Source of the DNA: Roseofilum casamattae BLCC-M143
GTDB taxonomy: Bacteria > Cyanobacteriota > Cyanobacteriia > Cyanobacteriales > Desertifilaceae
NCBI RefSeq assembly: GCF_030068455.1
Contig: NZ_JAQOSQ010000014.1
Location: 1-64,000 of the forward strand
DNA length: 64,000 bases
Reading direction: 5' to 3'
The translations under genes were made by a program, and so were the position numbers. Shown here one piece after another: positions 36,530-40,765 of the stretch. A model generated the notes under the pieces. That model was not told the origin of the DNA. It searched no databases and worked only from the letters and a program-made list of their open reading frames with translations. How positions within the stretch are numbered: the first letter of the stretch is position 1; each line of letters starts with the position of its first letter.

Positions 36530-37039
36530 ATGTCAGAGTTATTTGTATCTTGGTCAGAGTACCATTATAAGATCGAGCAACTGGCTGTCCAAATCTATCA
36601 ATCCGGTTGGCAGTTTAACCAAATTGTTTGTATTGCAAAGGGGGGGTTGCGAGTTGGCGATATCTTGTGTCGATTATACGAAAAACCTTTAGCGATTTTA
36701 TCTGTAGCATCGTACGCCGGCCCTGAGTTTCGCACGCAGGGCACGATTGAGTTTTCCGAGCATTTATCAATGACCAATGATACGGTGAATGTGCCAATTT
36801 TGTTGGTGGACGATCTGGTTGATTCTGGAATTTCTTTGCAAGAAAGTATCGATTGGCTGCGCTCTTATACCGGCAATCCTTCAGTAGAAATTCGGACGGC
36901 AACGCTCTGGTACAAGGCTTGTTCTGCGATCGCGCCGGATTATTATGTGGATTATTTACCCGATAATCCTTGGATTCATCAACCGTTTGAACTGTATGAA
37001 CAAACCTCTCTGGCGGAACTGGCGCAAAAGCTTCACTAG
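36530..37039 (+). CDS. Phosphoribosyltransferase (hypoxanthine/xanthine-guanine type)
   Basis: The 169-residue protein has the PRPP-binding motif ILLVDDLVDSGISLQES (about residues 89-105) and the N-terminal IVCIAKGGLRVGDIL loop. WYKACSAIAPDYYVDYLPDNPWIHQPFE matches the C-terminal hood of xanthine-guanine PRTases. It probably salvages purines. Its last 44 bp overlap the start of the phospholipase D lipoprotein gene, suggesting coupling or annotation of the downstream start too early. Confidence 0.87.
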   Translation: MSELFVSWSEYHYKIEQLAVQIYQSGWQFNQIVCIAKGGLRVGDILCRLYEKPLAILSVASYAGPEFRTQGTIEFSEHLSMTNDTVNVPILLVDDLVDSGISLQESIDWLRSYTGNPSVEIRTATLWYKACSAIAPDYYVDYLPDNPWIHQPFELYEQTSLAELAQKLH

Positions 37040-38621
37040 TTTGCTCTTCCTTCTCGTCCTCGCTGGATGCGGGCGGAAATCTCCCGATATTACCCAGTTG
37101 CCGCCACTCCCTCAAGATCCTTTTATTCAAGTTTATTTTAATGCATCTGAAGCTGCCAGTTACACCGATCCCTATCGGCAAATTCATCGCCTGGGAGATA
37201 ATCTGGAGGAGAAGATAATTGAGGCGATCGCCACGGCAGAAACGAGTATAGATATTGCCGTGCAAGAGTTTCGCCTTCCCGAACTGGCGCGAGCATTAGC
37301 AGAACGAGCAAACGCGGGAGTCAAGATCAGAATTATCTTGGAGAATAAGTATTCTCGGTCTTGGAGTCAATATTCCGATGGCGAACTTGCGGAAATTCCA
37401 GAGAGAGATCGCGATCGCTACGAGGAGTTTTTGGCCCTCGTCGATCTGAATGAAGATGGAACATTATCTCCAGACGAACTTAACCAACGGGATGCGTTTG
37501 CTATCTTAAATAATGCCGGAATTGAAATACGCGATGACACGGCAGATGGCTCGAAAGGCAGCGGGTTAATGCATCACAAGTTTATCGTGATTGACAACCG
37601 CGAGCTTATCGTTTCTTCGGCTAACTTTACGACCAGTGGAATTCATGGAGATTTCGACTCTCCAGATAGCCGAGGCAACGCCAATCATCTCTTACAAATT
37701 CAGAGTATTACTTTGAGCGAGATTTTTACGGAAGAGTTTAATCTTTTATGGGGAAATAACATCGGTACCAGCCAGTTTGGTTTGAATAAACCCCGTCGCG
37801 GACTGCAAAAAGTTCGAGTCGGCACAACTCCAGTCTCCGTCTTCTTTTCGCCGACTTCTGCTTCCAAAGAGTGGAGTAACAGTGGCAATGGGGCGATCGC
37901 GCAAACTCTGAAAACTGCGGAAACTGCGATCGATATTGCCACATTTGTTTTCTCGGAACAACAACTTTCTAATGTGCTGCATATCTTATCTCAAAATGGA
38001 ATAACCGTTCGCACCTTAATTGACCGCAGTTTTATCTATCGTTACTACAGCGAAGGATTGGATATGCTCGGAGTTGCTCTAGCCGAAAAATGTAAATACG
38101 AACCCGATAATTTACCCTGGCTCAGACCGATAAAAACCGTCGGTACTCCCGCTCTTCCTCCGGGAGATAAATTGCATCATAAATTTGCCATAATTGACGA
38201 GAAAACTGTTATTACCGGATCGCAAAATTGGTCGGCAGCAGCAAACCATAAGAATGATGAAACCATACTCATTCTGGAAAATCCTACAGTTGCCGCTCAC
38301 TTCGATCGCGAATTTCAACGATTGTATCGAATTGCACAGATTGGAATTCCGGAAAAGGTTGCGCAGCGGCTGGAAGCACAACAAAAAGAATGTCCGGTTA
38401 TTGCCGCTCCGAGTAACTTGCCCATTCGCGGAAAAGTTGTTAATTTAAATACAGCAACTATTGTGGAATTAGAAGCCTTACCGGGAGTTGGAGAAACCCT
38501 GGCGCAACGGATTATTGCCGCGCGAGAGCAACAGCCATTCAAGTCTCTAGAGGATCTCGATCGCGTTAAGGGAGTCGGTCCGAGTTTGCTGAAAAAGCTG
38601 GAGGGACGAGTCACTTGGTAG
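36996..38621 (+). CDS. Phospholipase D-like lipoprotein with EF-hand loop and ComEA helix-hairpin-helix tail
   Basis: From ATG 36996 (541 residues) there is a lipoprotein signal (SLLFLLVLAGC). Two HKD active-site motifs are intact: LMHHKFIVIDNRELIVSSAN and KLHHKFAIIDEKTVITGSQN, defining a two-domain PLD fold. Near residue 149 an insertion carries a canonical EF-hand loop, DLNEDGTLSPDE, with all Ca ligands. The C terminus (VNLNTATIVELEALPGVGET, VKGVGPSLLKKLEG) is a ComEA-type tandem helix-hairpin-helix, a DNA-binding fold. It may be a calcium-controlled periplasmic nuclease; this is inference. Confidence 0.87.
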   Translation: MNKPLWRNWRKSFTSLLFLLVLAGCGRKSPDITQLPPLPQDPFIQVYFNASEAASYTDPYRQIHRLGDNLEEKIIEAIATAETSIDIAVQEFRLPELARALAERANAGVKIRIILENKYSRSWSQYSDGELAEIPERDRDRYEEFLALVDLNEDGTLSPDELNQRDAFAILNNAGIEIRDDTADGSKGSGLMHHKFIVIDNRELIVSSANFTTSGIHGDFDSPDSRGNANHLLQIQSITLSEIFTEEFNLLWGNNIGTSQFGLNKPRRGLQKVRVGTTPVSVFFSPTSASKEWSNSGNGAIAQTLKTAETAIDIATFVFSEQQLSNVLHILSQNGITVRTLIDRSFIYRYYSEGLDMLGVALAEKCKYEPDNLPWLRPIKTVGTPALPPGDKLHHKFAIIDEKTVITGSQNWSAAANHKNDETILILENPTVAAHFDREFQRLYRIAQIGIPEKVAQRLEAQQKECPVIAAPSNLPIRGKVVNLNTATIVELEALPGVGETLAQRIIAAREQQPFKSLEDLDRVKGVGPSLLKKLEGRVTW

Positions 38622-38695
38622 TTTTTCATGCATTCGCGACTAGGGATTTCCGCTATTGCGATCGATAAAGTTGTAATTCTTATCATTCCCTCGCC

Positions 38696-38769
38696 TTTTC
38701 CCCACAACTTCCACACTATTTCCACAAGCATTTTTGGTATTTTCCACAGTTTTCCCAGGCTTTTCCACA
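38696..38769 (+). other. Array of DnaA boxes, putative origin of replication
   Basis: Within 74 bp there are two perfect cyanobacterial-type DnaA boxes TTTTCCACA (38740-38748, 38761-38769), an 8/9 match ATTTCCACA (38718-38726), and weaker variants at 38696 (TTTTCCCCACA), 38707 (ACTTCCACA) and 38750 (TTTTCCCAG). All point the same way and starts are about 11, 11, 22, 10 and 11 bp apart, i.e. on one helix face. The surrounding gap 38622-39043 (422 bp) has no gene and contains an AT-rich stretch near 38880-38960. dnaA and dnaN are not in the window. Confidence 0.6.
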
Positions 38770-39043
38770 AGTTGCAAGGGTTAAAGACCTCGATCTTGCT
38801 CGAGCAATCGCGATCGCTTGGGGATTTCTCCAACGGCAGGCGATCGGGTCTGAGTTTGCACTAACTTCATGAAGTTTAGTAACAAAAACAAGCCTGAAAT
38901 TACTATTTTTACGTCCAATAAGCAAAAATTAACGTACCGTTTTAATAATTTGCAACATTGACAAGCCTCCCCCTTAGGAGCACAAAATAGAGTAATGAGG
39001 CATTACGCCAACATTCATCTTACCCAATCCTTGAGGGCTGCAT

Positions 39044-39277
39044 ATGCATACTACAACCGTGAGTATTCTGGCAGAAATACCTGAAGACCTACACGAATCC
39101 ATTCAATCCTACTTGGACACTCACCCTGACTGGGATCAAGAACGGGTATTTTCGGCGGCATTGTCCCTTTTCTTGCTGCAAAATGGCAACGGTCAGACGG
39201 CTGAGACTGAATCGAGTTATCGCAAGGCAGCACGAGTTTATCTCGATGCCCTATTCAATGTTTCGGCATTGCCTTAA
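39044..39277 (+). CDS. DUF2811-type small protein
   Basis: The 77-residue protein has the pattern VSILAEIPEDLHESIQSYLD followed by WDQERVFSAALSLFLLQNG, as in small cyanobacterial DUF2811 proteins. These look like short ribbon-helix-helix-like or helical proteins of unknown function. It lies directly right of the DnaA-box region and 42 bp before the protoporphyrinogen oxidase gene. Confidence 0.82.
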   Translation: MHTTTVSILAEIPEDLHESIQSYLDTHPDWDQERVFSAALSLFLLQNGNGQTAETESSYRKAARVYLDALFNVSALP

Positions 39278-39319: not shown

Positions 39320-40765
39320 ATGAGCGATTCCACTCCATCATCCAATGTTCTCCAAGCCTTGATTATCGGCGCCGGAATTAGCGGTCTCAGCCTCGCTCAC
39401 CATCTGGAGAAGCAGCAACTCTCGTCACTGTTGGTGTGCGAAGCGCAAGACCGAGTTGGGGGGAATATTACCAGTCGCGAGTCGGAAGGATTTTCCTGGG
39501 AAGAAGGGCCCAATAGTTTTCAACCCGGCCCGGAGTTACTGCGATTAACGGTAGATTTGGGTTTGCAATCCGATCTGCTCCTGGCAGATCCCCGCTTACC
39601 TCGCTTTGTCTATTGGCAAAATATCTTACATCCGGTTCCCATGAGTCCTCCAGATGCGATTAAAACGCAATTGCTCAGCGACGCTGGGAAGTTGCGAGCA
39701 TTTTTGGGAGCGGTTGGGTTTGTCTCTCCTGCTCTCGGACAATCTATTGCAGAGCAAGGTGGAGAGGAAACGGTGCGCCAGTTTTTCCAACGTCATTTAG
39801 GAGTGGAAGTGACCGAGCGGTTAGTTGCTCCATTTGTCTCTGGAGTTTATGCCGGAGATGTGGACGCGTTGAGTGCTTCAGCAGCGTTTGGTCGGGTGAC
39901 GAATTTAGAAGAGGTAGGCGGAGGATTGGTCGCCGGTGCGCTGCTGTCGCGACGGAAAAATCCCAAGCCTCCCGTCGATCCAGACCTACCGAAAACGCGA
40001 CCGGGAGAGTTAGGATCGTTTAAGGATGGGTTGAAGCAATTACCAGAGGCGATCGCCAATCGGTTGGGCGATCGGGTTAAACTGAAGTGGAAGTTAGTCG
40101 CTATCCGTCCTACAGAACGCAACACTTATCTGTGCGAGATGGAAACACCGGAAGGACATCAAACCATCGAAACTCGCAGTTTAGTCCTGACAACTCCAGC
40201 TTATATTACATCAGAATTATTAGCCGAACTCGCTCCAGTAGGCAGTCCTGCCTTAGCAGAAATTCCCTATCCTCCCGTCGCCAGCGTCGTTATCGCTTAT
40301 CCCAAATCGGCATTAAAACAACCTTTGATCGGTTTTGGCAATCTCATTCCCAGAGGACAAGGCATTCGCACCTTGGGAACCATTTGGACTTCCAGTTTAT
40401 TCCCCGGAAAAGCACCGGAAGATTGGCAATTATTCAATAATTTTATTGGCGGCGCCACCTATCCGGAATTAGGCGATTTAACCGAAGCAGAAATCGTGCA
40501 GCAAGTTCACGAAGATTTAGGCGGAATCTTGCTCAAACCCGATGCTCCCCAACCAAAAGTATTAGCCGTTCATCTGTGGAAGCGCGCCATTCCCCAATAT
40601 ACTCTCGGTCACAAACAGCGGTTAGCCTCCCTCGATCGCGATCTCTCCCAGCTTCCCGGCATGTTTGTCTGTACCAATTATACTGATGGTGTAGCGTTAG
40701 GTGACTGCGTGAAGCGATCGCAACAACATGCCACCGACATCCTCAACTATCTTCAGGCTCTATAG
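39320..40765 (+). CDS. hemY: Protoporphyrinogen oxidase (FAD, HemY type)
   Basis: This enzyme oxidises protoporphyrinogen IX to protoporphyrin IX, upstream of haem and chlorophyll. The N-terminal dinucleotide site is ALIIGAGISGLSLAHHLE, and VGGNITSRESEGFSWEEGPN, VAPFVSGVYAGDVDALSA and VCTNYTDGVALGDCV are characteristic. 481 residues is normal. It follows the DUF2811 gene by 42 bp. Confidence 0.94.
   Translation: MSDSTPSSNVLQALIIGAGISGLSLAHHLEKQQLSSLLVCEAQDRVGGNITSRESEGFSWEEGPNSFQPGPELLRLTVDLGLQSDLLLADPRLPRFVYWQNILHPVPMSPPDAIKTQLLSDAGKLRAFLGAVGFVSPALGQSIAEQGGEETVRQFFQRHLGVEVTERLVAPFVSGVYAGDVDALSASAAFGRVTNLEEVGGGLVAGALLSRRKNPKPPVDPDLPKTRPGELGSFKDGLKQLPEAIANRLGDRVKLKWKLVAIRPTERNTYLCEMETPEGHQTIETRSLVLTTPAYITSELLAELAPVGSPALAEIPYPPVASVVIAYPKSALKQPLIGFGNLIPRGQGIRTLGTIWTSSLFPGKAPEDWQLFNNFIGGATYPELGDLTEAEIVQQVHEDLGGILLKPDAPQPKVLAVHLWKRAIPQYTLGHKQRLASLDRDLSQLPGMFVCTNYTDGVALGDCVKRSQQHATDILNYLQAL

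Follow-up and report, generated by a model that had tools for sequence, protein, structure and literature searches.

The window analyzed here, a stretch of 64,000 nucleotides, lies on contig 14 (C14) of a 74-contig, 5.1-Mb genome, designated G000 in the comparisons below. A gene-free gap at positions 38622 to 39043 ends at the ATG of a short gene at 39044, the product of which belongs to the DUF2811 family (96.8 bits, compared to a gathering score of 26.6 for PF10929; no NCBIfam match was found for it). Within the gap, five co-oriented boxes of the TTTTCCACA type are located on the plus strand between 38696 and 38769, with steps of 11, 11, 22, and 21 bp, and promoter-like hexamers lie between this array and the gene (Table 1).

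Table 1. Features of the gap and of the genes that border it. Fractions are of the named DUF2811 loci, which are the best 80 of 331.
Feature	Position	Strand	Remarks
PLD-like/helix-hairpin-helix protein gene, upstream neighbor	36945..38621	+	Outside the unit; neighbors vary
Conserved element left of array, GTTGTAATTCTTATCATT (consensus approximately TTTGCAATTCTTATCTTT)	38670..38687	+	Positional conservation
DnaA-type box TTTTCCCCA	38696..38704	+	1 mismatch; conserved in position at other loci, where it mostly reads TTT(T/C)CCCCA
Weak DnaA-type box ACTTCCACA	38707..38715	+	2 mismatches; conserved mostly as TTCCACA or TTCCCCA
DnaA-type box ATTTCCACA	38718..38726	+	1 mismatch; conserved
Perfect DnaA box TTTTCCACA	38740..38748	+	0 mismatches; conserved
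Perfect DnaA box TTTTCCACA, nearest to promoter	38761..38769	+	Anchor column of 54 nonredundant loci
TTGGGGATTTCT	38818..38829	+	Conserved in many relatives ∼44 bp past last forward box; 57 bp here
TTTAGTAAC	38875..38883	+	Possibly a degenerate form of the HLR1-like direct repeat (RpaB site) that many relatives have
−35-like hexamer TTGACA	38958..38963	+	Downstream of array in 70/74 array-bearing loci, window included
−10-like hexamer CAAAAT	38983..38988	+	After 19-bp spacer; 19-bp spacer in 59/70
DUF2811 gene (PF10929), 77 amino acids	39044..39277	+	Pfam E value, 8.8e-28
Protoporphyrinogen oxidase gene, downstream neighbor	39320..40765	+	TIGR00562 E value, 6.4e-109; replaced in other taxa

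The sequence TTTTCCACA is given as the cyanobacterial DnaA box in an excerpt of PMC4674748, according to which domain IV of DnaA binds such boxes in vitro. A preliminary description of this DNA had recognized boxes of the cyanobacterial form, two perfect, one matching at 8 of 9 positions, and some variants, co-oriented at multiples of about 11 bp. The form, the orientation, and the phasing were all supported; two of the boxes are perfect, two have one mismatch, and one has two. The total number of boxes with at most one mismatch in the window was ordinary (22 versus 20.7 expected). Four such boxes are clustered in the same orientation within 80 bp, compared to at most two among 300 dinucleotide-shuffled versions of the window, and a perfect pair within 25 bp was present in none of the 300. 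The whole genome contains 79 perfect boxes, and the exact-pair pattern TTTTCCACA-N9-13-TTTTCCACA occurs at two places only, the array in the window and C4:200680-200729. The AT-rich stretch said to follow the array does look A/T-rich by eye, yet the conserved promoter also lies within that stretch. A structured RNA in the gap was considered and rejected; the sole Rfam match was at chance level (E value, 0.99) and outside the gap.

The array accompanies DUF2811 in other genomes. Among the best 80 of 331 DUF2811 loci, here called named loci, 76 with at least 900 bp of upstream sequence were kept (L113, L134, L162, and L171 were dropped because their upstream regions were short); many are close relatives, 54 being distinct at 80% identity. 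The closest relatives of the protein within these best 80 are from Roseofilum, with 91% protein identity. A clustered array was present upstream on the same strand in 73 of the 76 loci, at least one perfect coding-strand box in 72/76, and phasing in 70/76. Perfect boxes at these 76 loci numbered 145 forward versus 3 reverse, and control windows of the same loci had 7 perfect boxes in 906 strand-windows. The loci without a clustered array were L101, L103, and L119, the last of which has no box at all. Distances from box to box peaked at 21 to 22 bp (170 pairs), 43 bp (59 pairs), 65 bp (35 pairs), and 11 bp (12 pairs). The alignments started from 81 loci, one of them that of the window; the array filter retained 76, which were thinned to 54 and 48.

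A broader set of 37 DUF2811 loci, which we selected from the phylum sample described below, covered 29 dnaA-positive genomes and included family f31 (apparently Nostocaceae-like) as well as several paralogues per genome from family f39 (apparently picocyanobacteria). A forward box with at most one mismatch was found at all 37 loci, a perfect one at 31, and a phased pair at 28. Boxes were also found at DUF2811 paralogues, several per genome in family f39. The nine loci without a phased pair include those of G098 and G015 (L181 and L182), which have only one-mismatch boxes. Both represent genus g9, in which dnaA and DUF2811 are present and the array is eroded, the kind of decay that little use of DnaA in this genus might produce. 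At seven loci (L195, L197, L198, L200, L204, L205, and L206), spanning families f35, f37, f39, and f41, an inverted DnaA box follows a forward box by 44 to 45 bp; none is recognizable in the TTGGGGATTTCT region of the window itself.

Aligned on the last box, the elements at DUF2811 loci are ordered as follows: a TTTGCAATTCTTATC element, the box series, TGGGGA at +44, an HLR1-like repeat in many loci, TTGACA, and the −10-like hexamer. TTGACA was present in 74 of 78 upstream regions from the best 80 of 331 loci, versus 111 of 556 control windows. Across the 70 loci with TTGACA downstream of an array, the distance from the last box to TTGACA had a median of 183 bp (interquartile range, 183 to 184; 67 of 70 loci within 175 to 215), whereas the distance from TTGACA to the gene start, taken in named loci as the start of the protein match at query residue 1 to 5, varied from 64 to 442 bp. 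The corresponding values in the window are 197 bp from array to TTGACA, a 19-bp spacer, and 86 bp from TTGACA to the gene. A standard promoter scan of the plus strand, which allowed only spacers of 16 to 18 bp, gave no hit. The left element was also conserved, with AATTCTTA in 57 of 78 upstream regions of the named set (best 80 of 331) versus 9 of 556 control windows. In the window and its relatives it has the form TTTGCAATTCTTATC(T/A)TT, and we know of no factor for such an element.

With the HLR1 consensus (RpaB site) as printed in the excerpt of PMC11633204, and at most two mismatches, the pattern was found in 58 of 78 upstream regions (best 80 of 331 loci) and in the opposite orientation in 18 of 78; the control gave 24 matches in 772 windows, each in both orientations. 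In this respect DUF2811 loci resemble cyanobacterial promoters controlled by RpaB through HLR1, and they differ from them in the added DnaA-box array. In the window itself there was no match at this threshold, so that HLR1 is not recognizable there.

Control of either neighboring gene by the array was rejected, because the neighbors, including the protoporphyrinogen oxidase gene and the gene for the PLD-like protein, change across genomes while DUF2811 stays.

The distribution of DUF2811 was evaluated in a class sample of 388 Cyanobacteriia and a phylum sample of 244 genomes, which overlap and are thus not independent. In the phylum sample, DUF2811 was above the cutoff in 106 of 244 genomes, by our own count from the listing in 106 of 117 Cyanobacteriia and 0 of 127 genomes from elsewhere in the phylum, with one match below the cutoff (G128). 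The small genomes of family f39 have two to five copies each. In the class sample, DUF2811 was detected in 368 of 370 genomes with dnaA, compared to 5 of 18 without it (Fisher P = 1.5e-18, for a single gene pair and with phylogeny ignored). Both dnaA-positive genomes lacking DUF2811, G277 and G356, are fragmented drafts. Two of the five dnaA-negative genomes that have DUF2811 carry copies with stop codons (G166 and G513), and in the other three (G020, G201, and G500) the gene is intact. By genus and family codes, which do not amount to a tree, the 18 dnaA-negative genomes make up eight groups at the level of genus or family. DUF2811 is lost or broken in at least one genome in each of seven groups; in the eighth, represented by G020, the gene is kept and the array is gone.

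The boxes were similarly affected. In G020, the gene and its promoter block remain with no box of one mismatch or fewer, and G141 and G521 of the same genus have arrays. Compared to the array of G162, which belongs to the same genus, G500 has one perfect box left, G201 is reduced to three boxes, one of them perfect, and G166, with its broken gene, has an altered −35 hexamer, one forward box with one mismatch, and one perfect reverse box. No forward box was found in G513. This loss or reduction relative to dnaA-positive genomes of the same genus is modest evidence, from two genera, that the boxes depend on the presence of dnaA. Genome-wide, exact phased pairs were present in 57 of 103 dnaA-positive versus 1 of 14 dnaA-negative Cyanobacteriia (Fisher P = 0.001), and the reversed control pattern was present in 3 of 244 genomes (G064, G120, and G157). 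The single dnaA-negative genome with a phased pair was G131 (C2:18150-18200), in which TTTTCCACA is contained in a 21-bp tandem repeat.

A screen of 39 genomes, among them G000, gave the exact-pair pattern in 30 genomes, and the reversed control was absent from all 39. The pairs formed 64 clusters, of which 62 were annotated (G013:C159 and G036:C93 were left out), with Pfam searches on representatives of the neighboring genes; the name guaA was inferred from amidotransferase and PP-loop-type matches. Twenty-one clusters were upstream of the DUF2811 gene family, 19 were beside a cation-efflux gene, its small neighbor, or a guaA-like gene, 8 were beside dnaA with dnaN nearby, 5 adjoined a topoisomerase I gene in the genus of the window, and the remaining 9 were left unassigned. 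Because the annotated clusters fall into these classes, the array in the window represents a recurrent class distinct from the dnaA-dnaN array.

The preliminary description had presented the gap chiefly as a possible chromosomal origin, and this was not supported. An origin relocated away from dnaA and dnaN would account for the phased strong and weak DnaA boxes together with the A/T-rich stretch. A phased DnaA-box cluster is indeed expected of oriC, as is adjacency to dnaA or dnaN, which is usual in cyanobacteria and is lacking here. As had been noted at the outset, neither gene is beside the array on C14; dnaN is on C43 and dnaA is on C46, and no box cluster was found beside either in G000. 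Separate contigs for the two genes were also found in G004. However, the fixed distance between array and DUF2811 promoter and the boxes at several DUF2811 paralogues per genome in family f39 argue against an origin, as does the second cluster in the same genome, the three boxes at C4:200680-200729, an observation that the preliminary description had itself named as contrary to its proposal. Furthermore, in G046, G121, and G195 a different array adjoins dnaN, at a great distance from the one at DUF2811, and in G182 (family f39) the sampled cumulative skew was lowest at the start of the record, which is the dnaN site, rather than at the two DUF2811 genes at 0.60 and 1.35 Mb. Because of these separate dnaN arrays and the skew of G182, it seems very unlikely that the array is the origin. 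Within the window, GC skew had no minimum or negative-to-positive switch at the array, and GC skew is reported to be uninformative in many cyanobacteria in excerpts of PMC5987646 and PMC7198777, the latter describing it as irregular in most. The sampled skew of G195 was likewise irregular; its minimum, near 2.35 Mb, matched neither dnaN (1.62 Mb) nor DUF2811 (2.67 Mb). The oriC of G000 may be the C4 array or some other site.

In Escherichia coli, datA, DARS1, and DARS2 are nonorigin clusters of DnaA boxes tied to the control of DnaA. The array in the window resembles them as a candidate DnaA-box cluster outside the origin, and it might mainly titrate or reactivate DnaA and precede DUF2811 by chance. 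A compact, conserved cluster outside oriC would suit such a role, as would the inverted box that 7 of 37 loci have at a fixed distance. Unlike those sites, however, the array is bound to the promoter of one gene; its spacing is fixed to that promoter and not to the gene start, it stays with DUF2811 through changing neighborhoods and with the paralogues, and complete genomes differ in how far it lies from dnaA or dnaN. Titration or reactivation as the main function is therefore considered unlikely. It could also be argued that the repeats are sites of another factor that resemble DnaA boxes, for instance of DUF2811 itself, which adjoins arrays of this class; direct repeats in a single phase would suit a small dimeric protein. 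That the same 9-mer recurs at similar spacing in dnaA-dnaN arrays, and that boxes are lost or reduced where dnaA is lost but DUF2811 is kept, makes this highly improbable.

The fixed promoter spacing and the attachment to the gene and its paralogues thus indicate control of DUF2811. We consider that the array is probably not oriC but a control switch, and that it is a DnaA-responsive regulatory element of DUF2811, the product of which acts in a DnaA-dependent process, with a probability of roughly 0.78. This agrees with the fallback offered in the preliminary description, a DnaA-regulated locus, since the boxes lie upstream of the promoter and are conserved with the gene. Several points count against this reading. 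The array is far (∼180 bp) from the promoter, 3 of 76 named loci (best 80 of 331) have no clustered array, 9 of the 37 loci from dnaA-positive genomes are without a phased pair, two dnaA-positive drafts do not have DUF2811, no HLR1-like site can be recognized in the window, and three dnaA-negative genomes have intact DUF2811, with boxes persisting in two of them (G201 and G500) and in G166 with its broken gene.

In established DnaA biology, strong boxes serve to anchor the protein, and weaker ones along one face of the helix permit its ATP-dependent extension. At the DUF2811 locus, DnaA would bind the strong boxes at 38740 and 38761 first, and abundant ATP-bound DnaA would then spread cooperatively onto the weaker boxes on the same face, as at oriC. 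From its position ∼183 bp upstream (197 bp in the window) of the TTGACA-N19 promoter, the array would set DUF2811 transcription, probably joined by RpaB in species where an HLR1-like site lies between the array and the promoter. The spacer is unusual at 19 bp, which suggests a weak promoter that needs activation; given this spacer and the remoteness of the array, activation through looping or through contact with RpaB seems a better fit than simple occlusion. The DUF2811 protein may work in a DnaA-dependent process, most simply, and speculatively, as a feedback regulator of initiation. A wider proposal, to which we give somewhat less than an even chance, is that DnaA and DUF2811 form a replication-control circuit specific to cyanobacteria, in which a filament on the array reads the level of active DnaA (in many species together with light or clock input via RpaB) and sets the level of DUF2811, a new regulator of the DnaA pathway that would be dispensable once DnaA-dependent initiation is abandoned.

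DnaA-regulated promoters are already known; what is unusual here is the class-wide conservation, the origin-like phasing, the fixed spacing, and the shared loss with dnaA. The intergenic DnaA-box regions of Bacillus subtilis (Ishikawa et al. 2007, as cited in an excerpt of PMC7198777) are similar in that a DnaA-box cluster lies upstream of a gene outside oriC. In contrast to these, the DUF2811 array is conserved widely in Cyanobacteriia, is phased like an origin, and is located ∼183 bp before a promoter with a 19-bp spacer, and its target gene was largely lost with dnaA. The oriC of Cyanothece ATCC 51142, which according to the excerpt of PMC4674748 lies beside dnaN and has at least three TTTTCCACA boxes and an A/T-rich stretch, shares both of these features with the window, whereas the array in the window is away from dnaN and dnaA and coupled to the DUF2811 promoter, and some relatives have a separate array at dnaA or dnaN. 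Finders of oriC that rely on box clusters might choose the DUF2811 locus by mistake in cyanobacteria.

DnaA is essential in Synechococcus elongatus and dispensable in Nostoc PCC 7120 and Synechococcus PCC 7002. Free-living cyanobacteria without dnaA are reported in the excerpt of PMC7198777, which calls it unclear what part DnaA plays in cyanobacteria with DnaA-independent replication. The DUF2811 array bears on what DnaA does in species that replicate without it, and DUF2811 is a single, widely conserved candidate for both a target and a partner of DnaA, largely lost with dnaA.

A ribbon-helix-helix fold, an impression from the DUF2811 sequence, was not supported by structure searches. AlphaFold gave a weak model of four helices and no strand (mean pLDDT, 67.5, with residues 1 to 10 below 50); Foldseek found nothing for it at an E value of ≤0.001, and the best E value in a sequence search of the PDB was 0.69. 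A literature search for "DUF2811" and "PF10929," with coverage that mostly excludes subscription journals, returned no paper, and none of the literature matches listed, as judged by title and opening of the abstract, reports a DnaA-box array before DUF2811.

The second array of this genome, L007:8681-8730 (G000:C4:200680-200729), is conserved at 18 further loci. Three TTTTCCACA boxes 20 to 22 bp apart are present in 17 of the 19, near a cation-efflux gene or its small neighbor, and at 10 loci the next gene is a convergent guaA-like one, in place of which G000 has a co-directional kinase-like gene. Arrays of this type are better candidates for datA/DARS-like titration than the array in the window. 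A third array, of which the exact pattern found none in G000, lies directly 3′ of the topoisomerase I gene in five genomes of the same genus (L058, L059, L062, L064, and L066) and is a possible oriC or titration site.
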